Assembly (NCBI GenBank): GCA_001798075.1
Contig: MGRG01000014.1
Location: 62,001 to 126,000, forward strand
Length of the DNA stretch: 64,000 nucleotides
Direction: 5' to 3'
DNA from: Deltaproteobacteria bacterium RIFCSPHIGHO2_01_FULL_43_49
GTDB taxonomy: Bacteria; UBA10199; SPLOWO2-01-44-7
The notes under the pieces are model-generated. The model was not told the DNA's origin, ran no database searches, and worked only from the letters and a program-made list of their open reading frames with translations. Shown piece after piece: positions 4,082 to 63,728 of this stretch (position 1 is the first letter of the stretch; each line of letters starts with the position of its first letter). The translations under genes and the position numbers were made by a program.

Positions 4082-5950
4082 CTAGCTTTGATTTCCAAAA
4101 TCAACTTGGTAATCAAACAACGTTGAGGGTACTTTGGACAACGTGTCACGCACTTTATCCAAGTGCAGATGCTTGAGCCCTTCGCCCGATGTATATTTCA
4201 TGAAGAAAGCCTCCACTGCTTTGGGGTTTGCCTCGAGGTAGATCTTTCCGACATCGGCGTATAATGCTTTGAGAGCCTCTGGCATTTTGTCATAATTGAT
4301 ACGAAACTTATCCTCTCGATACGCCAAGGCTCCTCTCTCTGTTAAATATCCAACGGTAATAGCAGCCAGTTGAACATAAGCGCTTTTGCTTTCATAAAAT
4401 TTCTCGCCTTTGGGAGCGGCACGTCTAATATGGCCAAAACACCACATGAGCAGGCCCGCATAGACATCATTTCTCTTGTTTGGATCGGCGAGACCCAGTC
4501 TTTCCAGTTCTGGCTGCAGCGCAACCGCTCCGATCTCTGCCTTCAATTCTTCAAGTTTAAAAAGGACACTCCCTAGTTTGTCTTGATAATCTTTCATTTG
4601 GGGGCTCAAATTGTGGGCGATTTCGTGATAGACCATTGTGTCAGCAATAGCATCGGTGTTGAGATGAGCCATTAGATTGCGTGAAAAAATTTCTCCAAAT
4701 TTATCTCGTAAATTTTTATTGTACCCCAGTTTTGTCTTATTCATGTAGGCCATGGCTCGTGTTTTACATTCCGCCTTGCCATCTTCGCCACACCAGTTGG
4801 GTAGTGTCTGAGCGGCAGCGGTTCCGGTGACGGATCCTTTGGCATCTCCTGAATCCATAACCACATTCATAAATTCAGGTGTTTCAATCTGCACCTTTCT
4901 TGTCTTGTAGCCTTCAATGAGGCTTCCCAGATAATTTTCTAATGCCTGTTTTTGGTTCATGACACCCACCATTGCCTTTTCAGCCTCTAGGTCTTTGATC
5001 CCTAAAACCATGTGAAAGAGGGCTTTCATGTGGCAGGTATTTTCTCTAGAGGGTTCATCAGGCCCAATCCTCAAGAAAAATTTAGATTTTTTGGCGGCAA
5101 TCCAGCGTTGATCCGATTTGGAATAAGGAAACGGTTTTTTGCTAAGGAGTGCCTCAGCGACCGCTTTCATATAATTCGCTAAATCCTTTTCATTAGCTGC
5201 AACGGCAAGCATTGCGGCATTGTTCAGTTGTGCTGCGGCCTTTGAAAGGAGTTGTTTGAATTCGGGCACATCGGCAAAGGGAAGTGCTTTGAGTTTTCCT
5301 CTATTATCGCGGATAACGGCACTGAATGGATTGGTGAGGGCTCCTTTGATATCTTCATCACAGTTGACCCCTGACGGGTAAAGGGGGGTTGCATAAACTG
5401 GGAGCGTGGCCGCTGGTGTGCAGAAAGGGTTTTCGTTGTCTTCGCACCAAACCGAATGATAGCGGCGATAAAATTCCTTATCTTCTTCGGTTCCTCTTTG
5501 TTCAATCTCGTTTTGATGGCGCGTTGAGCCCATTTGCGCTTGAAAAAGTTCATCCATGATTGCACCCGCCTTCAATATGGCTCTGACCATATCTTTTTGT
5601 GCTGGAGTTAAATGATAATCATCGAGATTGGTTTTAATAGTGACCATTGTTGTTCTAGCAAGTTCCCTTTTAACCGCTTCTTGTCTTTTTAGTTCTATTT
5701 TGTCTTTGATTTGATCTATTTTTGTTTGGAGCTCTGGCGAGATTTTCCAAAGACTATTTCCTTGTCGATCTTCCCGTTTGATTCCATATTTTAAGAGGTT
5801 CTCTTCAGAAATTCTCAACTCAACTGGATCAATCACGTTGGGATTTGTTGCATCTTGAACCCACTCAAAGCCTTCTCCATCAGCCTTTGCTAATGCATTG
5901 AATTGTTCTCGATAGTGGGTTAAACTGGTTGGCGATTTTGATTCAGCCAT
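4082..5950 (-). CDS. Putative zinc metallopeptidase-like protein (HExxH)
   Basis: Motif MVYHEIAHNLSP; start set at MAESKSP (5950) because AGGAGGTCACC-ATG gives a good Shine-Dalgarno; the longer ORF to 5995 would overlap the divergent gene. Confidence 0.7.
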   Translation of the reverse strand: MAESKSPTSLTHYREQFNALAKADGEGFEWVQDATNPNVIDPVELRISEENLLKYGIKREDRQGNSLWKISPELQTKIDQIKDKIELKRQEAVKRELARTTMVTIKTNLDDYHLTPAQKDMVRAILKAGAIMDELFQAQMGSTRHQNEIEQRGTEEDKEFYRRYHSVWCEDNENPFCTPAATLPVYATPLYPSGVNCDEDIKGALTNPFSAVIRDNRGKLKALPFADVPEFKQLLSKAAAQLNNAAMLAVAANEKDLANYMKAVAEALLSKKPFPYSKSDQRWIAAKKSKFFLRIGPDEPSRENTCHMKALFHMVLGIKDLEAEKAMVGVMNQKQALENYLGSLIEGYKTRKVQIETPEFMNVVMDSGDAKGSVTGTAAAQTLPNWCGEDGKAECKTRAMAYMNKTKLGYNKNLRDKFGEIFSRNLMAHLNTDAIADTMVYHEIAHNLSPQMKDYQDKLGSVLFKLEELKAEIGAVALQPELERLGLADPNKRNDVYAGLLMWCFGHIRRAAPKGEKFYESKSAYVQLAAITVGYLTERGALAYREDKFRINYDKMPEALKALYADVGKIYLEANPKAVEAFFMKYTSGEGLKHLHLDKVRDTLSKVPSTLFDYQVDFGNQS

Positions 5951-5980
5951 GGTGACCTCCTGAAATAAAAGGGTGAGTAA

Positions 5981-6644
5981 GATGAAAAAAAACATTCCAT
6001 TTGTTGTGAATCACTCGGACGGTACATACTGTTTTCAAGCCGCTTTGGCAATGATTCTTCAATTTTTCACCGATAAAAAATACTCGTTTGAAGAATTGAA
6101 CAAACTGTCTCAAAAGCTGACAGGCAAATGGACGTGGCCAACCGCTTCACTCCTTTGGCTTTTGGATCATGGCTATGAAATCAAACTGATCGAGACTTTT
6201 AGTTACGAAGAGTTTGGCAAAAAAGGGAAAGATTACCTGATCAAGGCCTATGGTTTGGAAGTAGCCAATGCGCAGGAGGCCAATAGCGATTTGCCAAGAG
6301 AACAAAAATTGGCATTGGAGTTTTCGAAAAAGGGGTGTGTGGAAAACAGAATTCCAGATTGGAATGATTTAAAGGAATTATTTAATGAAGGTTATCTAAT
6401 CATTTGTAATATAAATGCTTGTAGTCTTTATAGAAAGGAAGGTTATTCCGGTCATTTTGTCGTTCCCACTTCGATTGCAGAGGATGACATTATCATTCAC
6501 GACCCAGGCCTTCCACCCCATCCTTCATTTAAGGTCAAAAGAGAGGTTTTTGAAAAGGGGTGGGGCTATCCCAATGACAGAGCTAAAAATATCCTAGCCA
6601 TCCGCAAAAAGGGGACGTTCCCCTCGGAGGGGAACGTCCCCTAA
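5981..6644 (+). CDS. C39-like (papain-fold) peptidase family protein
   Basis: VNHSDGTYCFQAALAMILQFF ... GHFVVPTSIAEDDIIIHDPG resembles Cys/His/Asp of the peptidase C39-like family; ORF 3' end is a palindromic element. Confidence 0.65.
6611..6641. repeat. GGGGACGTTCCCC hairpin element, short-loop copy 1
   Basis: ggggacgttcccc-tcgga-ggggaacgtcccc, 13-bp perfect arms. Confidence 0.9.
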
Positions 6645-29683: not shown

Positions 29684-30331
29684 ATGGGTATCACAGAACG
29701 AAAAGAGAGGGAAAAAAAGCAGCGCAAAGAACAGATTTTGGAGGCGGCCAGAAGGTTGTTTCAAGAGCGCGGCTTTTTGAATGTCACGATCAGTGACATT
29801 GCGGAGGCTGTAGAACTTTCCATCGGCTCTCTTTACCTATATTTCAAAAACAAAGAAGATCTTTATGCGGGGCTTGCTTGTTTAGGTTCTCAAAAGTTTG
29901 ACACCCTTCTTGATGAGGCCCTTTACAAAAAGAAGAAACTGACCCAGAAGGAATTGGTCGCTTTTATTGAAAAGTTTATGCGCATTTATGCCGATTATGG
30001 TTGTTACTTTGACGTCTTGATGTTCAATTTTAAGGGTAAAGGGAGTATTAATTTGTCGGATGGTTACGCCAACACCCTGCGTGAAATTACACAATCTTCT
30101 TTGACAAAATCGGTTAAATATTTTTTGACTCGTGTTTCTCCAGAAAGACAAGACAAAATTGAAGCGGCTCGTGCAACAACCTTTGTTATTTGGGCTCTGC
30201 TTTTGGGCCTGACTCAAGTTTTGAATGTTGGCCGAACAGAAATTTTTAGTGAAGAAGATGTTCAAAGGGTGATCAAAAAAGCAGCCCTCCTCTTGGCTAA
30301 CGTACCCCCTGAATTGTCTATCAATTCCTGA
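29684..30331 (+). CDS. TetR/AcrR family transcriptional regulator
   Basis: [48 protein letters not shown]. Confidence 0.95.
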
Positions 30332-30342
30332 ACGTCGTTCAG
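30328..30342. promoter_or_regulatory. TetR-type operator-like palindrome
   Basis: CTGAACG-t-CGTTCAG, between tetR and the SPT-like gene. Confidence 0.4.
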
Positions 30343-30377
30343 AAAAAAAATCAAATTCATCAAGCATTTCAACTTGA

Positions 30378-30465
30378 TGGCAAAAGTGTAGGAGTGTAGA
30401 AGTATAGCAGTGTAGGAATCAAAAGGACTTAAACACTCAAACACTTCTACACTTAAACACTAACA
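30378..30465. repeat. 8-bp-period fold-back repeat
   Basis: agtgtaggagtgtagaagtatagcagtgtagg ... acttaaacactcaaacacttctacacttaaacac. Confidence 0.8.
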
Positions 30466-31734
30466 ATGGTCGATATTTTTAAGAAGTGTTTCGACTTTCC
30501 AGATGCCAAGTTCGTCAAGGCCTCCGGTCTTTATCCTTTTTTTAAGGCCATGGAAGCCTCCTTTGGCACCACAGTCTATTATGAGGGTAAGCCCGTAGTC
30601 ATGATCGGCTCCAACAATTACTTGGGGCTGACATCCCACCCAAAGGTCATACAAAGGGCGAAAGAGGCTATTGACCAACTAGGGACAGGCTGTACCGGTT
30701 CTCGCTGCCTAAATGGAAATACGGTTCTCCATGATCGCTTGGAAGAAAAATTAGCGGCACTCGTTGGCAAAGAAGAGGCCCTGGTTTTTGCCACCGGCTT
30801 TCTCACCAATCTTGGAACGATTGGTTGTTTAGCCGACCCCGAAAGTGATGTAATTTTATCGGATGCCGAAAATCATGCCTCCATTATTGAAGGTTGCCGT
30901 TTGAGCAAGGCGCAAGTGGTGACCTATCGTCATAACGATATGTTGGATCTCCAAAACAAATTAAAAGAGATTCCTTCAGAAAAAGGATGTTTGATCGTTA
31001 CCGACGGAGTTTTTTCTATGACAGGTGATATTCTCAATTTGCCCGAACTTGTCGCAGTCAAAAAGACATTTCCCGAAGCGCGACTCTTTTTGGATGATGC
31101 CCATGGGTTAGGTGTTTTGGGTGCAAAGGGAGAGGGGACAGCAGGGCACTTTGGTTTAACTAAAGAGGTTGATTTGATAATGGGAACTTTTTCAAAATCG
31201 TTTGCTTCCATTGGTGGGTTCGTGGCGGGCGAATCCGATGTGATCGATTACATTCGGCATAAGGCGCGCGCCTTTATGTTTTCGGCTGCAATGCCACCGG
31301 CCTCTGTTGCTACCGTTTTGGGGTGTTTGGAAGTGTTGGAGGAAGAGCCATGGCGTCTGGAAAACTTAAGGAAAAATATTCGCATTATTAAAAATGGTTT
31401 TGAGAAAATGGGTTTGGCTTATCTTCCCTCCGACACGCCAATCATTTCGGTTTTTGTTGGTGATGAAGGAAAAGCTTTCACACTTGTAAAAGACCTTTTT
31501 GAACATGGTATTTTTGTAACCCCGGTTTGTTATCCTGCTGTTCCGTTTGGCCAGGCGCTGTTGCGCACTTCATACATGGCCACCCATACGGAAAAAGAAT
31601 TGGATAAGGCCTTAGAAGTTTTTGCCAAACTGGCCCCACAGTATGGCATTTTGAGAAACCAAGTCGAGATTCCAAAAGAGTTGACTCACCGCACGCAAAC
31701 CTATAGTTTCGATGCGCTCCTACAGGGAGCATAA
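30466..31734 (+). CDS. spt: PLP-dependent alpha-oxoamine synthase, serine palmitoyltransferase-like
   Basis: NNYLGLTSHPKVIQRAKEAIDQLGTGCTGSRCLNGN, LFLDDAHGLGVLG, IMGTFSKSFASIGGF (PLP Lys); gene neighbourhood. Confidence 0.8.
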   Translation: MVDIFKKCFDFPDAKFVKASGLYPFFKAMEASFGTTVYYEGKPVVMIGSNNYLGLTSHPKVIQRAKEAIDQLGTGCTGSRCLNGNTVLHDRLEEKLAALVGKEEALVFATGFLTNLGTIGCLADPESDVILSDAENHASIIEGCRLSKAQVVTYRHNDMLDLQNKLKEIPSEKGCLIVTDGVFSMTGDILNLPELVAVKKTFPEARLFLDDAHGLGVLGAKGEGTAGHFGLTKEVDLIMGTFSKSFASIGGFVAGESDVIDYIRHKARAFMFSAAMPPASVATVLGCLEVLEEEPWRLENLRKNIRIIKNGFEKMGLAYLPSDTPIISVFVGDEGKAFTLVKDLFEHGIFVTPVCYPAVPFGQALLRTSYMATHTEKELDKALEVFAKLAPQYGILRNQVEIPKELTHRTQTYSFDALLQGA

Positions 31735-31738
31735 TCTC

Positions 31739-32863
31739 ATGCCATTAGACATTGTTCGAGTAGAAGATTCTAAAAATTTGAGTGAGTTCATTCGCTTTCC
31801 ACATGCCCTTTATACAAAGGATCCCCATTGGGTCCCTCCCTTGGAATTTGAACGGCGTAAATTTTTCAATCCCAAAACCAATCCCTTTTATAAAATGGGC
31901 CAGGCACAACTTTTTTTGGCCAAAAATAATGGGAAAACGGTTGGCCGCATTTCAACTCAAGTTCACAAAAGGCATCTGGAGGTTCATCAAGATGAAGCCG
32001 GTTTCTTCGGTTTTTTTGAGTCGATTGAAGAGTGTGAAGTGGCTCAAAAATTGTTAGAAGCCGCCCAAGAGTGGTTGCACCAAAAAGGAATGAAAAAGAT
32101 ACGGGGTCCTTTTAACTTCACCATCAACGACGAAATGGGGATTTTGGTCGATGGTTTTGATACACCCCCTGTTATTTTAATGACACACAACCCTCCTTAT
32201 TATGCTTCTCTGTTGGAACATGCAGGGTTTAAAAAAGCAAAGGATGTCTATGCCTATCATTACGATATCGGAAAGTTACCGGAGCAAGCCGTCCAATTAG
32301 CAGAGGCCGCTAGAAGCCATCCAGGTCTGACGATACGTTCCATCAATATGAATGAATTTGAAAAAGAAATTAGAATCATGATGCAAATTTTTAATGAGGC
32401 CTGGGCTCAAAATTGGGGTTTTATACCTTTAAGTGAAGAAGAAATTACTCACGTAGCAAAAGATTTAAAACCGATTGTCGATTCTGAAATGATTTTCTTC
32501 GCTTTTGTGGATGGAGAACCTGCGGCTTTTAGCATTTGTCTTCCCAATATCAATGAAGCGATTCACGATTTGAAAGGCAAGTTGTTCCCTTTCGGTTGGG
32601 CAAAGTTGTTGTGGAGATTAAAGAGAGGACTAAAATCAATCAGACTTTGTCTTATGGGAATTCGCAAACCGTATAGAGGAGGGGTGTTGGGTGCTTTAAG
32701 CGTTTTATTGAACGTTGAGATGCATCGCCGCGGCGCACCGCGAGGTTATAAAACGGCAGAGCTTGGCTGGACTCTCGAAGACAATGATCGAATCAACAGA
32801 GGAATCGAGTTTATGGGTGGCAAGCGATACAAAACATATCGGATATATGAGAAAGAGTTATGA
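31739..32863 (+). CDS. GNAT-fold acyltransferase, candidate bacterial ceramide synthase (bCerS-like)
   Basis: HALYTKDPHWVPPLEFERRKFFNPKTNPFY, GRISTQVHKRHLEVH, GFFGFFESIEE, FTINDEMGILVDGFDTPPVILMTHNPPYY; placed between SPT-like and epimerase genes. Confidence 0.65.
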   Translation: MPLDIVRVEDSKNLSEFIRFPHALYTKDPHWVPPLEFERRKFFNPKTNPFYKMGQAQLFLAKNNGKTVGRISTQVHKRHLEVHQDEAGFFGFFESIEECEVAQKLLEAAQEWLHQKGMKKIRGPFNFTINDEMGILVDGFDTPPVILMTHNPPYYASLLEHAGFKKAKDVYAYHYDIGKLPEQAVQLAEAARSHPGLTIRSINMNEFEKEIRIMMQIFNEAWAQNWGFIPLSEEEITHVAKDLKPIVDSEMIFFAFVDGEPAAFSICLPNINEAIHDLKGKLFPFGWAKLLWRLKRGLKSIRLCLMGIRKPYRGGVLGALSVLLNVEMHRRGAPRGYKTAELGWTLEDNDRINRGIEFMGGKRYKTYRIYEKEL

Positions 32864-32873
32864 AAGAAGGAGC

Positions 32874-32916
32874 GAAAAAATAGCGGGTCCTGTCCCAGGC
32901 CACCCACAATTTTTTA
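32874..32916. repeat. Element X, intermediate copy (X2)
   Basis: gaaaaaatagcGGGTCCTGTCCCaGGCCACCCacaatttttt. Confidence 0.75.
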
Positions 32917-32926
32917 GTCATATTTT

Positions 32927-33907
32927 ATGAAAGCGTTTGTAACAGGTGGTACTGGATTTTTAGGATCGCATCTTGTCGACCTTCTTTTACAGCAGGGGCA
33001 TGAGGTTGTTTGCCTGGTGCGGCCCACCAGCAATTTGCGATGGCTAAAAGATAAGAGGGTCAAGTTGGTTCAAGGTGACCTGTTGCCCGACAATGCCGGA
33101 CTCAAAGAAGGGCTCAAAAATGCCGACTGGTGTTTTCATGCAGCCGGTTTGATTAGTTCTACCAATCCCCAAGAATATTTTACAGTGAATGCAGGGGCCA
33201 CAAGGCATTGCTTGGATGCCTGTTTGAAAGGTGCCCCCAATCTCAAACGATTTGTTTTGATTTCTTCATTGGCAGCGTGTGGTCCTGCTTTAAATGGAAA
33301 ACCACTTGATGAAGAAACAACACCTCATCCGATCAGTATTTATGGTCAGAGTAAATTGGAGGGGGAAAAGATTGCATTGAGTTACAAAAACCGAGTGCCG
33401 GTGACTGTCCTGCGGCCTCCTGCTATTTACGGCCCTCGAGACAAAATGATTTTCCCTGTTTTGAAGATGGCAAAACGAGGAATGTTTTGCGTGCCGGCAG
33501 GCAAGCCTCGTTATGTCAGCATGGTGTATGTGGAAGATGTTGTGCGTGCCTGTTTGTGGGGGGCACAAAGTGAAAGGGCCGTCGGAGAGGTTTTTTTTAT
33601 TGCCGATGGCGATTTATATAGCTGGCAAGATATTGGGGATACTTTGGGAGCCCTTTTTTATCGCAAAGTGTTCAAGCTTCCGATACCAAAATCTCTTTTA
33701 TGGAGTGTAGCTGTTTTGGAAGAATTGCGCTGCAAGTTATTAGGAAAATCTCCGCGAGTTCATCGTGATCATGTTCGCCAATTTTTTAGCTCCTCTTGGG
33801 GTATCAATATCGGCAAACTCAAAAGTGCCGGTTTTTCACCAAAATTCAATTTGGAAGAGGGCATGAAAGCCACCGTCGCCGGCTACCGCCAACTCGGCTG
33901 GCTTTAA
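32927..33907 (+). CDS. NAD-dependent epimerase/dehydratase (extended SDR), candidate ceramide reductase (CerR-like)
   Basis: MKAFVTGGTGFLGSHLVDLLLQQGHEV Rossmann; YGQSKLEGEK YxxxK; operon context. Confidence 0.75.
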   Translation: MKAFVTGGTGFLGSHLVDLLLQQGHEVVCLVRPTSNLRWLKDKRVKLVQGDLLPDNAGLKEGLKNADWCFHAAGLISSTNPQEYFTVNAGATRHCLDACLKGAPNLKRFVLISSLAACGPALNGKPLDEETTPHPISIYGQSKLEGEKIALSYKNRVPVTVLRPPAIYGPRDKMIFPVLKMAKRGMFCVPAGKPRYVSMVYVEDVVRACLWGAQSERAVGEVFFIADGDLYSWQDIGDTLGALFYRKVFKLPIPKSLLWSVAVLEELRCKLLGKSPRVHRDHVRQFFSSSWGINIGKLKSAGFSPKFNLEEGMKATVAGYRQLGWL

Positions 33908-33920
33908 TTTATTTTTAAAT

Positions 33921-34170
33921 GAAAATCGCTTTCGGGCAGGAGCGGGGTGTTCAAAACTGACAGATGGAAATCGCTTCCGCTCGTGGGGTTCGAAAGGACG
34001 TGGGTTGTTTTGGGGAGTCTCCCCAAAACACCCACTCGACTCTCACCCCGCCAAATTATTGTAACCCCCAAAAGGTTTGGCGGGGTTCCGAGACGCCTTC
34101 CGAACCCCACTCGCTCGCGCAATTTCCATCTGTTTTTCCCATCCCCACTCCTGCCCGAAAGCGATTTTTA
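33921..34170. repeat. Giant fold-back element G, copy 2 (branched; candidate structured RNA or MITE)
   Basis: Arms aaaatcgctttcgggcaggagcggggtgttcaaaactgacagatggaaat / atttccatctgtttttcccatccccactcctgcccgaaagcgattttt; internal hairpins at 34007-34029 and 34045-34086. Confidence 0.85.
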
Positions 34171-34989
34171 TTTTTCAGCCGGTAAATTCGGATCGTTGGA
34201 CCAATCACTCCAGGAACCTTCATAGAGTTTGGCGTCGAGTCCAAGGAGTTTGAGAACAAAGATGTTATGGCAAGCAGTAACTCCGGAGCCACAATAAGAA
34301 ATAATTTCTTTGGCTTGCTTCACACCAAGGGTTTCAAACTGTTTTTTTAATTCTTCGACGTTTTTGAACTCTTTCGTTGTTGGGTCGACATTATTTGCAA
34401 AGGGTGCATTTTTGGCGCCGGGAATGTGGCCAGCTTTTTTGTCAATTGGTTCCACTTCACCGCGATAACGCTCCGGTGAGCGGGCATCGATCAAAAGGCA
34501 ATTTTCACATGGGATCATTTTTTTAACTTGTTCTTTATTCACAACCCAATCTGGATGCGGGCTCGCCTTAAAGGAACGAGCCTTGATTTTCGGAACTTCC
34601 TTGGTGACGGGGCGACCTTCAGTCGCCCATTTCGTCCACCCCCCATTCAACAAAGCGACCTTTTCGTGACCAAAGTAGCGTAGTAACCACCAGAGTCTTG
34701 CAGCATAGGCACCACCCACATCGTCATAGGCAACCACGGTGATTGTTTGGTCGATACCCGCATTCGACATCGTGATAGAAAAATCGGTTGTTCTTGGAAT
34801 CGGGTGTCTGCCAGGCCCTTCTCTTGCAGCGAGATCTTGGTCAATATCCAGATGAATCGCTCCTGGAATATGGCTTTCCAAATAAGCCTTTTTTCCATCA
34901 CTCGGTTTGCTCAAAACATACCGGCAATCGACAATCCTCAAATTTGGATCATTAAGATGGTTAGACAGCCATTGTGTATCAGCAAGCAT
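34168..34989 (-). CDS. Sulfurtransferase (thiosulfate/3-mercaptopyruvate, tandem rhodanese)
   Basis: IVDCRYVL.., HIPGAIHLDID, active-site CGSGVTACHN. Confidence 0.93.
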   Translation of the reverse strand: MLADTQWLSNHLNDPNLRIVDCRYVLSKPSDGKKAYLESHIPGAIHLDIDQDLAAREGPGRHPIPRTTDFSITMSNAGIDQTITVVAYDDVGGAYAARLWWLLRYFGHEKVALLNGGWTKWATEGRPVTKEVPKIKARSFKASPHPDWVVNKEQVKKMIPCENCLLIDARSPERYRGEVEPIDKKAGHIPGAKNAPFANNVDPTTKEFKNVEELKKQFETLGVKQAKEIISYCGSGVTACHNIFVLKLLGLDAKLYEGSWSDWSNDPNLPAEK

Positions 34990-36781: not shown

Positions 36782-36889
36782 GTGGGTGTCATTTTTTTGA
36801 CAACTGGGTGAACAATCACACATTCCTTCCATTTTAACGTTTTCCCCCTTTTTGGTAACCCCCGGTACCTTGTCATGATTTTTTGGTGA

Positions 36890-36907
36890 ATATGATGCAA
36901 ATCATAT
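36890..36907. promoter_or_regulatory. Operator-like palindrome upstream of RCC1 lipoprotein
   Basis: ATATGAT-gcaa-ATCATAT. Confidence 0.3.
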
Positions 36908-36978
36908 CACAGTATCTGGCACGGCGTATGCACCTCTATGCACGGGGGTGTATTTTTAAAGGGGTGGGTGTGAGAGAT

Positions 36979-39900
36979 ATGCGTGCAAAAATCACATATT
37001 TGTTGCCAGTGCTCCTCCTTGCAGGCTTCTTAAGCGGGGTGTTGCAAGGGGGTTGCGGGAGCTTTGAAAGTGTTTCTACTGCAGGAAGAGCCGAAGGAGG
37101 TGGATCGAGTGGTTCTGGGGTTGCTATCAGTGGGACTGTAGAAGCCCCTGTGACTACAAGTACCAGCATCAGTATTGGGGCATCGGCTTCAAAAAGTGTT
37201 GGAAAAGGGTCTGCTGACAGTGGTGAAAAAATCATTGTCTATAAAGCCGTCACGGATCTTCCTGTCTCTGGAGGAACGGTCACTGCCAAAACAACTGGTG
37301 GGACGACATTGGATACAGGAGAGATCTCCTCTTCGGGTGCCATCACAGGGATTACCATTGACCCTGCGGCCCTGGATTCCACCAACCAGGTTCTACTGGA
37401 ATGCGATGTTAATGGGAAGAAGTTTGCAAGCTTGGTCGATTTAACAGGTCAATCAGCGGGAACAACTGTAAGTGCGGGGACGGTGAATACGGATACAACC
37501 CTGGCAACCCAACAGGTTTATTATCAGGGGGATCCTTCGTGTACACCGGATAATCCTTCTGCTTGCGCGGCCAAATTTCTTTCTGGGGAAGTGAGGCCTT
37601 TGGCATTGTTTAAGACTTTCAAGAATGCTTTTGACGTGACTTCTACGGCTGGCTCCAGTGATGCTGCCGGTGCCTTTGAAGCCATGAGCAAAGCATTCAA
37701 AGCGGCGATGGCTAGTGGGCAAAAACCATCATTTAGTGACATCAATGCTGCTTTGGCGGGTGGAGATATTTTGAACACTTGGAAGGCCTTTGACTCTTCT
37801 TTAGCAAGTATCGATATGTCTACGGCCATCGGACACGTTCAAAATTATATTCCGGCCGTTGCCAAGACCTTTCAAGATCTCACAACGTTCACGCAATATT
37901 TTAATGCAGGGCCTACCGGATGGACTGCTGCTGCCCAGTACTTTGGAAGACAAACGGGATCAGAACTTCTCAATGGGTTTAATAAACCGGAGATCTTTCA
38001 GGGGTATCTGCAGCAAAATGCCACCGCCTTTAACGCCGGAAACACAGCGGCCTTTGATGGCATGAAGAATGTGGGTCCCGTGATGGGGCAATTGGCAGGG
38101 AAATGTGCTGCGAGCGACTTTACTTCTGCAAAATACGAGGCCTTGAAGGCATTGATTGACAGCAAGGGTTCCAGCTTTAGCTCTTTGACCTCGACTCAGG
38201 TTGCCGACATGGGAGAAGCCTTCTGTAATCAGATGAAGGCCGCCAACTCGACAACGGAAATTGACGCCCTCAAGAATAATCCGGCTACCTTTGCTGGCAA
38301 GATATTCGATAACCCTGATGCTTATACAGGCTCTGCGGGTCAGACAGCCTTTGACAACCAGTTTATCAGTTTCGTTCAGAATCCCACGGCCTTCTCAAGT
38401 GGGAGTGGATGTTCAGCCAACGCGGATTGCCCATCGGGGCAGGTTTGTACCCCTGGGAGATATTGTATTGCGGAGTGCAGCTCTAGTTGCGGATTTTATG
38501 CCCCATGCACATCAAACAATCAATGTGGGACGGGATATTGTTCCGATGGATTTTGTCAGTTTAATTCCAGTTTCTTTACGAATCCTCTTGCAGGTGTTTG
38601 CAAGGTAACGAGTGAGAGTTGTTCTGCCAACACGGAATGTTGTTCGGGAAGTTGCAGCAGTGGGCGTTGCGTGTGGCAGGGAAATAGTGGAAGCGGCGCA
38701 ACAGGTATTTCTTTGTCGGCCGGCGATGCACAAATTGTCTTGAATTGGACAAAACTCAGTGGGGCGACCGGGTACAAGATTTATCGAAGCACCACGTCGC
38801 CGGTCACCACAAGTTCTACTTTGGTCGACACGGTTGGGGATGTGGCAACTTATACAGACAGTGGATTGACCAATAGCACCACCTATTATTACAGAATTGT
38901 TGGAATTCTTTCTGGAGGGGACTCCGGATTATCCAGTGAGGTCAGTGGAACGCCATCTTTATCCTTGGTTGCTCCGACGGGTGTGGCGGCTCAAGCAGGG
39001 AATGCTCAGATGACTCTCACTTGGTCCAAAGCGGCTCAGGCGACAGGGTATAAAATTTATCGAAGTACCACGTCACCGGTTACTACAAGTTCTACTTTGG
39101 TCGAAACAGTTGGGGATGTGGCAACTTATACCAACACCGGTCTCACCAATGGAACCACATATTATTATGCAATCGCCTCCACAGCCTCCGGCACAGACAG
39201 TGGTCTCTCCAGCGAGGTGAGTGGGGCACCGACGGCAGGAATTAAATTGGGGCAGGGAAATACGTCGACTCGACACTCCATTATTGCTAAAGGGGATGAA
39301 ACTGTCTGGGCATGGGGAGCAAATGACGGTGGACAGATTGGCGATAATTCAACCACACAAAGAAATAGTCCTGTCCAGGTTCATGGTGCGGGCAATGTCG
39401 GTTTTCTCACAGATGTTACGGCTGTTGCCATAGGGAACTACCAAACTCTTGCCCTCAAAAGCGATGGCACGCTCTGGGCTTGGGGTTGGAATGCCTATGG
39501 CGAAGTTGGGGATAATTCCACAACACAAAGAAATACTCCTGTCCAAGTCCATGGTCCAAGTGATGTCGGTTTCCTCACGGGCATTACGGCGATTGCTGCG
39601 GGGACCAGCCATAGTCTCGCCCTCAAGAGTGATGGAACCGTCTGGGCGTGGGGGGATAACGCCTCTGGCCAGCTTGGCGATAATAATGCCCCGACAGACA
39701 AATTGACGCCCAACCAAGTCCACGGTCCAGATGATGTGGGATTTCTCACGGGCATTACGGCGATCGCTGCGGGGACCAGCCATAGTCTCGCTCTCAAGAG
39801 TGATGGAACCGTCTGGGCGTGGGGAAACAATGGACAGTTAAATAATGTTGGTCAACTTGGAGACAATTCAACAACGCAAAGAAATACGCCCGTCCAAGTC

Positions 39901-40422
39901 CATGGCCCAGATAATGTCGGTTTCCTCACGGGTGTTAGCGCTATCACGGCGAGTTCCGAAAGGAGTCTTGCCCTCAAGAGTGACGGGACGGTTTGGGGTT
40001 GGGGATATAACGTCTACGGTGAGCTTGGAGACAATTCCACAACAAATAGAAAGACCCCTGTCCAAGTCCATGGTTCGGGTAATGTTGGTTTCCTCACGGG
40101 TATCACGGCGATTGCTGCGGGAAGCTACCATACTCTTGCCCTCAAGAGTGATGGAACTCTTTGGGGATGGGGGCGAAATGCCTTCGGTGCTGTTGGCGAT
40201 AATTCAACGACGCAAAGAAACACCCCTGTCCAGGTAGTCGGAGTCGGTGGGTCTGGTAATTTAACGGATGTCACTGCGATTGCTGCATCTGACTACAATA
40301 GCATGGCTTTAAAAAGTGATGGAACCGTCTGGGGATGGGGACGAAATAACTATGGGCAACTGGGTCAAGGAACCAGTGAGGACGGTAACCACCCAACTCC
40401 GCTCCAGATCTCCGGCTTCTAA
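36979..40422 (+). CDS. Lipoprotein with Cys-rich segment, two FN3 domains and RCC1/beta-propeller repeats
   Basis: MRAKITYLLPVLLLAGFLSGVLQGGC lipobox; ATGYKIYRSTTSPVTTSSTLV repeated; repeated TAIAAGxxHxLALKSDGTVWAWGxNxxGQLGDNSTTQRNTPVQVHG. Confidence 0.88.
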   Translation: MRAKITYLLPVLLLAGFLSGVLQGGCGSFESVSTAGRAEGGGSSGSGVAISGTVEAPVTTSTSISIGASASKSVGKGSADSGEKIIVYKAVTDLPVSGGTVTAKTTGGTTLDTGEISSSGAITGITIDPAALDSTNQVLLECDVNGKKFASLVDLTGQSAGTTVSAGTVNTDTTLATQQVYYQGDPSCTPDNPSACAAKFLSGEVRPLALFKTFKNAFDVTSTAGSSDAAGAFEAMSKAFKAAMASGQKPSFSDINAALAGGDILNTWKAFDSSLASIDMSTAIGHVQNYIPAVAKTFQDLTTFTQYFNAGPTGWTAAAQYFGRQTGSELLNGFNKPEIFQGYLQQNATAFNAGNTAAFDGMKNVGPVMGQLAGKCAASDFTSAKYEALKALIDSKGSSFSSLTSTQVADMGEAFCNQMKAANSTTEIDALKNNPATFAGKIFDNPDAYTGSAGQTAFDNQFISFVQNPTAFSSGSGCSANADCPSGQVCTPGRYCIAECSSSCGFYAPCTSNNQCGTGYCSDGFCQFNSSFFTNPLAGVCKVTSESCSANTECCSGSCSSGRCVWQGNSGSGATGISLSAGDAQIVLNWTKLSGATGYKIYRSTTSPVTTSSTLVDTVGDVATYTDSGLTNSTTYYYRIVGILSGGDSGLSSEVSGTPSLSLVAPTGVAAQAGNAQMTLTWSKAAQATGYKIYRSTTSPVTTSSTLVETVGDVATYTNTGLTNGTTYYYAIASTASGTDSGLSSEVSGAPTAGIKLGQGNTSTRHSIIAKGDETVWAWGANDGGQIGDNSTTQRNSPVQVHGAGNVGFLTDVTAVAIGNYQTLALKSDGTLWAWGWNAYGEVGDNSTTQRNTPVQVHGPSDVGFLTGITAIAAGTSHSLALKSDGTVWAWGDNASGQLGDNNAPTDKLTPNQVHGPDDVGFLTGITAIAAGTSHSLALKSDGTVWAWGNNGQLNNVGQLGDNSTTQRNTPVQVHGPDNVGFLTGVSAITASSERSLALKSDGTVWGWGYNVYGELGDNSTTNRKTPVQVHGSGNVGFLTGITAIAAGSYHTLALKSDGTLWGWGRNAFGAVGDNSTTQRNTPVQVVGVGGSGNLTDVTAIAASDYNSMALKSDGTVWGWGRNNYGQLGQGTSEDGNHPTPLQISGF

Positions 40423-61363: not shown

Positions 61364-61795
61364 ATGGTCAGTCAGTCCATACTGATTAAAACCCCCATCC
61401 AAACGATCTATCATTGCGTGGTTGATTTTGAAGCCTACCCAAAATTTTTATCAGAAATAAAATCGGTGCGCATTGAATGGTGCGATGACAAAGAGATGGA
61501 GGTTACTTTTAAAATTCAGCTCATCAAAGAAATCACCTACACTCTTCATGTGGAGCTTGATCCATCGCGCGCTGTTTATTGGAAATTAAAACAGGGTGAG
61601 TTGATGAAGAAGAATACAGGGAGTTGGAAATTCAAAATGAAAGATGATAATTTGACCGAAGCGACTTATTCCATCGATGTTGAGTTTGGTCTTTGGGTGC
61701 CGAAGGCGATTACCCAGACCTTGATTGAAAAAAGTCTTCCACAGACCTTACAACGTTTTAAAAAACGTTCCGAAAAATTGCTTAAGTCGAAATAG
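61364..61795 (+). CDS. SRPBCC family protein (polyketide cyclase / COQ10-like / RatA-like)
   Basis: IYHCVVDFEAYPKFLSEIKSVRI ... YSIDVEFGLWVPKAITQTLIEKSLPQTLQRFKKR. Confidence 0.8.
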   Translation: MVSQSILIKTPIQTIYHCVVDFEAYPKFLSEIKSVRIEWCDDKEMEVTFKIQLIKEITYTLHVELDPSRAVYWKLKQGELMKKNTGSWKFKMKDDNLTEATYSIDVEFGLWVPKAITQTLIEKSLPQTLQRFKKRSEKLLKSK

Positions 61796-63728
61796 CTTGC
61801 TGATATCTAGCCAATGCTAAGAGCGGGAAATAATAACGATAACCGTGGTAACGGATGTAAAAATGACCTGGGAATCCCGTTCCAGTGAAGTAGGGCTCTT
61901 CCCAAGTTCCTTCTCTAAATTGATCGAGTAGAAATTGAATGCCGTGTTGGACCGAAGAGGTGTGGCTCCGGCCGGCTGCGATTAAACCCATAACTGCCCA
62001 CGCTGTTTGGGAAGGGACACTTTGAGAGTAAGCAACAAAACGTTTCTTGGCATAACTCTCCGGTGATTCAGAAAATCCCCCATCTGAATGTTGAATCGAT
62101 TCCAACCAGTGAACCGCTTTTAGCGCATTTTTTTGTAATGAGTTTTCATGACCGAGGCCTTGGATGCCGGTCAAGACACACCAAGTTCCATAGATATAAT
62201 TGACTCCCCAACGACCATACCAACCCCCAAACTTCTCTTGAGATTTTTTCAAATAGTTGAGGGCTTTTTGTATGACTTTGCTGTGTGAATTCATTCCTAA
62301 TTTCAACAGAAGTTCCAGAGCTCTTCCGGTTATGTCTGGTGTTGATGGATCTAAGCAGGCTCCATGATCCGAGAAGGGTATTTTGTTGACGAGTTGTAAA
62401 TCATTGTTTTTGTCGAAAGCACCCCAACCCCCATCATCGTTTTGCATGGAGATCAGCCAGCTTAAGCCTCGATCAAAAGCCTCTCGTTTTTCTTTCTCTG
62501 GTAATTCCAAAGAATGTAATGCAGCAAGTACTTCGATTGTATCATCCACGTCTGGAAAATATTCATTTTTGAATTCAAAAGACCAGCCGCCGGGCTTTCC
62601 TTCCGGATTTTTGAATCGCCAATCTCCTTGAGGGTTTTTGACCTCCTTGGATAACAACCAACGTCCGGCCTTCAGAAGCCTTGGGTCATTGGCAAGGGCT
62701 CTCTCTGATTCAGCAAGCGCTACGATGCTCCATGGTGTATCCCAAACGGGCGAGATGCAACATTGTTGGTGAATTTCTTCACCTTGTTTTTGCTGAAAAT
62801 TTTTCAAAGCGCGCAAGGCTGTTTGAATTTGAGGGGATTCATTTTTATAACCAAATGCCTTGAAGGCCATGGCCCCATAAGCGAGTGCTGGGTAGATATC
62901 TTCTGTTTTTTGGATGTGCTCCCAGACCCACTCGATAGCCTTTTCCACAGCAAATTTTCGCCAAAATTTGAAGGGGACCTTTTCTACATATTTTAAACCT
63001 TTGTCCATTAATACAAAAAGCCTTTCAATGGATAAGGGACTTGTTTTATGGCTGATTTTCCATTTTCTCTCTTTCGGTTTTTCCAAAAACAATTCATCGA
63101 GATTAATTTTTAAGGAAACAACAGGGCGTTTGTTGAAAACAACGAGCAGGGGGACAATCGAAGCCCTGGCCCAACTCGAAAAATTGTAAATGTTCATCGG
63201 GGCCCAGGGAGGGAGTAACATCATCTCCGGTGGCATGCTCGGGCAAGCCTCCCATGGTACTAGACCAAATAAAGCCAGGTGAATTCGGGTAAAAACCCTG
63301 GCATGGGTGAGCCCCCCTTTTGAAAGGATAAATTGCCTGGCTTTGAGAAGGGGGGCATCATTTGGTGAAAATCCGGCTAGTCTCAAGCTAAAGTAACACT
63401 CGATGGTTGTGCTGAGATCTCCAGGCGCTGAAAAGTAAAGTCCCCAACTCCCATCTTCACGTTGTTCTTGAAGGATTCGTGCTACTAACCCTTTTTGAAT
63501 TTCTTCATCCACGCTCCCTAGGAAATTCATGAGCTGGATAAAACCAGCTCCAATGGCTTCGTTGGCCTCTAAAGTAAACCACCAATAACCCTCAGGGTAT
63601 TGGAGCTCCAATAAGGCGTCCGACGCCTTTTTGGTAACCTCTTGTAATTGCAAGGGTTCGATAAGCCCTGGATATGTTGGAGCTATTTTTGGCGGATAAG
63701 GTATCTTATGTAAAATGTCGTTTTTCAT
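61782..63728 (-). CDS. shc: Squalene-hopene cyclase family terpene cyclase
   Basis: DxDD-type motif FPDVDDTIEVL; QW motifs (QEQREDGSWGLYFS, QNDDGGWGAFD, HSDGGFSESPESY). Confidence 0.93.
   Translation of the reverse strand: MKNDILHKIPYPPKIAPTYPGLIEPLQLQEVTKKASDALLELQYPEGYWWFTLEANEAIGAGFIQLMNFLGSVDEEIQKGLVARILQEQREDGSWGLYFSAPGDLSTTIECYFSLRLAGFSPNDAPLLKARQFILSKGGLTHARVFTRIHLALFGLVPWEACPSMPPEMMLLPPWAPMNIYNFSSWARASIVPLLVVFNKRPVVSLKINLDELFLEKPKERKWKISHKTSPLSIERLFVLMDKGLKYVEKVPFKFWRKFAVEKAIEWVWEHIQKTEDIYPALAYGAMAFKAFGYKNESPQIQTALRALKNFQQKQGEEIHQQCCISPVWDTPWSIVALAESERALANDPRLLKAGRWLLSKEVKNPQGDWRFKNPEGKPGGWSFEFKNEYFPDVDDTIEVLAALHSLELPEKEKREAFDRGLSWLISMQNDDGGWGAFDKNNDLQLVNKIPFSDHGACLDPSTPDITGRALELLLKLGMNSHSKVIQKALNYLKKSQEKFGGWYGRWGVNYIYGTWCVLTGIQGLGHENSLQKNALKAVHWLESIQHSDGGFSESPESYAKKRFVAYSQSVPSQTAWAVMGLIAAGRSHTSSVQHGIQFLLDQFREGTWEEPYFTGTGFPGHFYIRYHGYRYYFPLLALARYQQAIST

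Follow-up and report, generated by a model that had tools for sequence, protein, structure and literature searches.

Does an uncultivated bacterial lineage carry its own ceramide pathway, and can that pathway be read from a single run of four genes? The question arises from a 64,000-nucleotide stretch of DNA (the window) on contig MGRG01000014.1 of Deltaproteobacteria bacterium RIFCSPHIGHO2_01_FULL_43_49, which GTDB assigns to UBA10199. A sequence-only reading of the window had proposed a TetR-regulated ceramide operon resembling that of Caulobacter, in which a regulator gene precedes genes for a serine palmitoyltransferase (SPT)-like enzyme, a GNAT-fold acyltransferase and an extended short-chain dehydrogenase/reductase (SDR). 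Our analysis favors the core of this proposal: we assign a probability of roughly 0.85 to a compact operon predicted to build the ceramide backbone with SPT, GNAT and SDR proteins under TetR regulation. This reading is carried by the families to which the proteins belong, their intact active-site motifs, the conserved gene order, the co-occurrence of the genes and a conserved palindrome. The open reading frames (ORFs) are present in the proposed order, all on the forward strand:

29684-30331, forward strand: tetR, a TetR-family regulator and candidate local repressor (Pfam TetR_N, 1e-17).
30329-30341, no strand: candidate TetR operator TGAACGTCGTTCA, a perfect palindrome kept in the family.
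30466-31734, forward strand: spt-like gene for a predicted serine palmitoyltransferase, an alpha-oxoamine synthase (AOS) dependent on pyridoxal phosphate (PLP) (NCBIfam, PDB, tree and motifs).
31739-32863, forward strand: bcerS-like gene for a YghO-family tandem-GNAT N-acyltransferase and predicted ceramide synthase (YghO homology and AlphaFold2 fold).
32927-33907, forward strand: cerR-like gene for an extended SDR, predicted 3-oxo-ceramide or 3-oxo-sphinganine reductase (Pfam Epimerase, motifs and tree).

The three enzyme genes are co-directional and closely spaced, with 4 nt between spt and the GNAT gene and 63 nt between the GNAT and SDR genes; upstream, purA and tetR are separated by 10 nt, and tetR and spt by 134 nt. 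The GNAT ORF has two candidate ATG starts, at 31712 and 31739. The latter, also used in the sequence-only reading, is preferred because an AGGGAG lies 9 nt before it, homologues begin there and it leaves 4 nt to spt. Downstream, the operon is bounded by a convergent rhodanese gene (34168-34989, reverse strand). Four further family members retain the tetR-spt-GNAT-SDR order, at 64-83% identity, and the purA-tetR neighborhood is retained in four relatives; in NCBI, family relatives are labeled Deltaproteobacteria. Because this order is kept in the family and the spt-GNAT adjacency recurs across phyla, the arrangement is not attributable to chance.

The PLP enzyme encoded at 30466-31734 is supported as a predicted serine palmitoyltransferase. 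Its closest PDB entry is the Sphingobacterium multivorum SPT (SmSPT) 3a2b (2e-118, 399 bits). In maximum-likelihood trees, a 100/100 branch separates two sides: the window enzyme falls with the SPTs, among them E. coli B Spt, the proteobacterial structure 2x8u and Sphingobacterium SPT, while E. coli BioF and Kbl, two HemA sequences and the genome's own KBL fall opposite. The SPT-like identity first proposed for this enzyme therefore holds, as it groups with SPTs and apart from BioF, KBL and HemA. The top NCBIfam model is SerpalmtaseCFB, at 491.8 bits under a 640-bit cut-off. That cut-off is also missed by the cluster enzymes of Zixibacteria (580 bits) and Pyxidicoccus (521 bits), which suggests a model specific to Bacteroidota whose cut-off does not define SPT as such. 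Lower NCBIfam scores went to bioF (397.5 bits) and KBL (365 bits, cut-off 460), and the bioF score, close below its 426-bit cut-off, is what would favor an assignment to BioF or KBL, with the neighboring genes serving biotin, threonine or unrelated metabolism. The split in the trees contradicts that assignment, as do the GTFSKS motif, Ala274 and a separate KBL in the genome (L116), which scores 663 bits against the 460-bit cut-off. We rejected a BioF or KBL identity on the trees and the separate KBL, and regard it as exceedingly improbable.

The active site of the window SPT is intact (K244 in GTFSKS, H137, D211, R367 and N50), and the equivalents of SmSPT Asn52, Ser81, His138, Ser243 and Lys244, which form the PLP-serine surroundings, are all present. 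These residues bear on the identity of the amino acid substrate, since the same chemistry with an amino acid other than serine could give a ceramide-like lipid; alanine or glycine, for instance, would lead to a 1-deoxyceramide. Sphingobacterium SPT accepts both, if poorly (PMC10196870), and 1-deoxyceramides in the Black Sea have been attributed to Desulfobacterota/Bacteroidota (PMC11334938). With the PLP-serine surroundings complete, we consider such a product unlikely.

A further residue separates SPT from a sulfonolipid enzyme. Position 274 is Ala in all 52 rows of the SPT clade and Thr or Asn in the BioF, KBL and HemA rows. At the matching site, the sulfonolipid enzyme SulA has Lys281 and Spt has Ala (PMC9304779), making cysteate an unlikely substrate of the window enzyme. 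A role in sulfonolipid (capnine) synthesis as a SulA-type cysteate acyltransferase would be compatible with the shared fold and superfamily, and PDB entries 7u7h (Bacteroidota-type AOS) and 28eh (cysteate-C-fatty acyltransferase) match at 254 and 251 bits. Both scores fall below that of the SPT match, and on this score and Ala274 we rejected sulfonolipid synthesis; Ala274 nearly refutes it, leaving it very improbable.

The product of 31739-32863 is supported as a YghO/bCerS-family protein and predicted ceramide synthase. It shares 40.5% identity with E. coli B YghO over 380 aa (full length, 3e-102) and falls in one tree with YghO and proteobacterial members. YghO has been listed with Caulobacter CC_1154 as an N-acyltransferase needed for dihydroceramide (PMC9386255). 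Searches of the GNAT sequence against Pfam, NCBIfam and PDB sequences gave no usable match, only weak ones at chance level. Its AlphaFold2 model, with a predicted local distance difference test (pLDDT) score of 90.4, adopts a tandem GNAT fold. The best PDB match to the model is 5kf1 (2e-14). Tandem-GNAT N-acetyltransferases lead the matches, and lower down come an N-myristoyltransferase and a histidine acetyltransferase in complex with N-myristoyl histidine. The full-length homology, shared tree and modeled fold agree with the earlier assignment of this protein to the bCerS type.

The SDR encoded at 32927-33907 matches Pfam Epimerase (8e-35) and retains its motifs, TGGTGFLG at position 6 and YGQSK (YxxxK) at position 139. 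It begins directly with the Rossmann motif; a periplasmic location has been demonstrated for CerR in Caulobacter (PMC11087976). An SDR tree was built from SDRs adjoining bcerS genes, ten other SDRs of the same genome and RfaD, a small outgroup sampling, and places the window SDR in a clade of 47 rows (99/99) that also holds Epi, the CerR orthologue of E. coli B, and ceramide-cluster SDRs. Nine of the ten other own SDRs are excluded from this CerR-type clade, the exception being the long-branch L104. Within it, the window SDR branches with the cluster SDRs of Zixibacteria and KSB1, apart from proteobacterial CerR. The grouping with CerR that the sequence-only reading anticipated is thus recovered, on a separate branch and with L104 as a long-branch exception.

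Several observations weigh against the operon as we read it. The comparison with Caulobacter was made through E. coli B orthologues standing in for the Caulobacter proteins, and no Caulobacter locus was among the best 80. The curated NCBIfam cut-offs lie above the scores of all the assigned proteins, and within the SPT side of the trees the window branch lies outside the characterized-SPT group or is unresolved relative to it (87/71, 89/49). The window SDR shares only 25% identity with Epi, and L104 matches CerR equally well (2.5e-21 versus 3.1e-21). Finally, no recognizable SDR was found in the fetched flanks of 9 of the 20 phylum loci, some of which are cut by contig ends. The low identity, the equal match of L104 and the loci with no SDR, along with a best NCBIfam match to HpnA (119 bits, far under the 368-bit cut-off), would fit a scheme in which spt and bcerS are correctly assigned while the SDR serves another lipid, at a head-group or hopanoid step for instance, and another enzyme reduces the ketone. 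We think this improbable given that a single clade unites the CerR orthologue with all cluster SDRs and excludes nine of the ten own SDRs, and that the SDR gene lies directly behind the GNAT gene throughout the family. Since L104 matches CerR just as well, we retain the predicted CerR-type reductase as the weakest of our three assignments.

How closely does the predicted ceramide operon resemble known systems? The Caulobacter crescentus set consists of spt, acpR, cerR and aasR together with bcerS (CC_1162, 1163, 1164, 1165 and 1154), and the two share the SPT, YghO/GNAT acyltransferase and epimerase-type SDR families. Unlike Caulobacter, the window locus lacks acpR and aasR (the best AasR match in its own genome has 26% identity, 9e-14), bcerS directly follows spt, and the SPT and SDR sit on other branches, the SPT not being of the proteobacterial type. 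The proposed match to Caulobacter accordingly stands for the three enzyme families and fails for the arrangement, for AcpR and AasR at the locus and for the adjacency of bcerS and spt. Bacterial cerS has been said always to be in a different operon from spt (PMC11324152), a generalization that fails here since the window bcerS adjoins spt. The E. coli B locus yghO-aasR-epi-acpR-spt (NC_012971.2, L103) is 36.6% identical for SPT, beside the values given above for YghO and Epi, and differs in being of the five-gene alpha/beta/gamma-proteobacterial type with yghO divergent.

Closer parallels are found in Myxococcus and Pyxidicoccus clusters (L065, L067 and L084), which have the same co-directional SPT, GNAT, SDR order at 49-50%, 43-44% and 33-34% identity, respectively, but differ in a gap of ~440 bp between spt and the GNAT gene and in having no TetR homologue in the fetched flanks. 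The Sphingobacterium/Bacteroidota SPT (3a2b; SerpalmtaseCFB) is the closest solved SPT and has the same active-site residues, although the three ceramide genes are not close together in Bacteroidota (PMC11334938). By sequence, the window operon falls within bacterial ceramide synthesis, in a myxobacterial/Bacteroidota-like version without AcpR or AasR. Clustering of the three ceramide genes and Spt-like genes in ~40 phyla have been published (PMC11334938). Two myxobacterial loci, L059 and L100 (10001-13387), carry spt, GNAT and SDR genes followed by a second GNAT copy.

Regulation by TetR had first been proposed from gene order, and a conserved regulator and a conserved palindrome before spt now make it plausible. 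The TetR protein reaches no NCBIfam equivalog cut-off; its gene lies upstream of spt in the four other family genomes (78-83% identity). Directly behind tetR, TGAACRHCRTTCA occurs at the orthologous place in five of five family genomes. In the window, this site is a perfect 13-bp palindrome, TGAACGTCGTTCA. Its first three bases form the stop codon of tetR, and its conservation may therefore be partly coding. No other exact copy occurs in the 2.2-Mb genome; with ~0.8 copies expected by chance from letter frequencies, this uniqueness is no evidence, while the conserved position is. A second conserved block, AAATTCATyAA-ATTTCAaCTTGaTg, follows the palindrome. Scanning for promoters and terminators returned nothing above chance level. 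We propose the palindrome as a candidate TetR operator through which spt, bcerS and cerR may be repressed. Between tetR and spt, at 30385-30461, the window genome alone among the five family genomes has an insertion built from an 8-bp tandem unit, AGTGTAG(N), present in three forward and two inverted copies (5 matches versus 0.08 expected). It comes between the conserved block on the promoter side and the start codon of spt, which has no obvious Shine-Dalgarno sequence.

From these assignments, we infer substrates, reaction order, product, repression and ligand as follows. From L-serine and a long-chain acyl thioester, the SPT would form 3-oxo-sphinganine by condensation. The tandem-GNAT protein would N-acylate this intermediate and the SDR would reduce the 3-keto group to yield dihydroceramide, with acylation ahead of reduction as in the Caulobacter model. 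The TetR protein probably represses the three enzyme genes by binding the palindrome that overlaps the tetR stop codon, and would be released by a ligand, perhaps acyl-CoA or a long-chain base.

Is the operon peculiar to this genome? Across 46 phylum genomes, the GNAT occurs in 22 and an SPT-clade enzyme in 23: both are present in 22 (including G016, whose SPT is cut by a contig end), SPT alone in one (G040) and neither in 23 (Fisher p 6e-12, a value that ignores shared ancestry). Weaker SPT candidates in G005 and G007 fell on the KBL side of the tree. In 18 of 19 fetched phylum pairs, spt and the GNAT gene are co-directional with a gap below 200 nt. The SPT-GNAT-SDR trio also occurs outside the phylum, in Myxococcota, Zixibacteria, KSB1, Binatota and one Chloroflexota locus. 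A single clade of phylum SPTs is rejected by the approximately unbiased (AU) test (p 1e-7). The window-family SPT joins three other genomes with very divergent GNATs, whereas the window-family SDR joins G030. Given these differing affinities, the operon seems to be mosaic in descent, assembled from parts with different histories. Locus L023 and the G037 contig are the same contig. Three genomes of the class (L134, L135 and L136) have SPTs close to that of the window (53-60% identity), GNATs that are very divergent from it (33-38%) and no recognizable SDR in the fetched flanks, and possibly represent a variant of the ceramide pathway. A literature search found nothing linking UBA10199 with sphingolipid.

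Elsewhere in the window, the squalene-hopene cyclase noted in the sequence-only reading is confirmed by Pfam at 61782-63728 on the reverse strand (SQHop_cyclase N 1e-104, C 1e-130), 28 kb from the operon; hopanoids and sphingolipids may coexist in the organism. Directly 3' of the SDR gene, a nearly palindromic 252-bp element (33921-34172) has 59 matches in its own genome, many of them partial, at 66-100% identity, and is a repeat family resembling miniature inverted-repeat transposable elements (MITEs) or repetitive extragenic palindromes (REPs). The region 36883-40422 encodes a 1179-aa secreted-looking protein in which fibronectin-like and RCC1-like stretches repeat, as judged by eye, and the long ORFs 4082-5995 (637 aa) and 8-1810 (600 aa) matched no Pfam family.

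Taken together, the evidence gives good support to the locus as a further instance of a known ceramide pathway in an uncultivated lineage, rather than a novel type of system, the core discovery being already known. More speculatively, and doubtfully, a single-target TetR might switch sphingolipid synthesis, with the mosaic operon making an unusual (for example 1-deoxy) ceramide beside outer-membrane hopanoids. The predicted operon places the ceramide pathway firmly in this lineage, about half of whose sampled species carry it, spt and bcerS being gained or lost as a pair, and shows that bcerS can share an operon with spt, against the published generalization. The three-gene set is small enough to be expressed whole and could serve as a test of the disputed reaction order, while the candidate repressor site may offer an entry to the regulation of bacterial sphingolipids.

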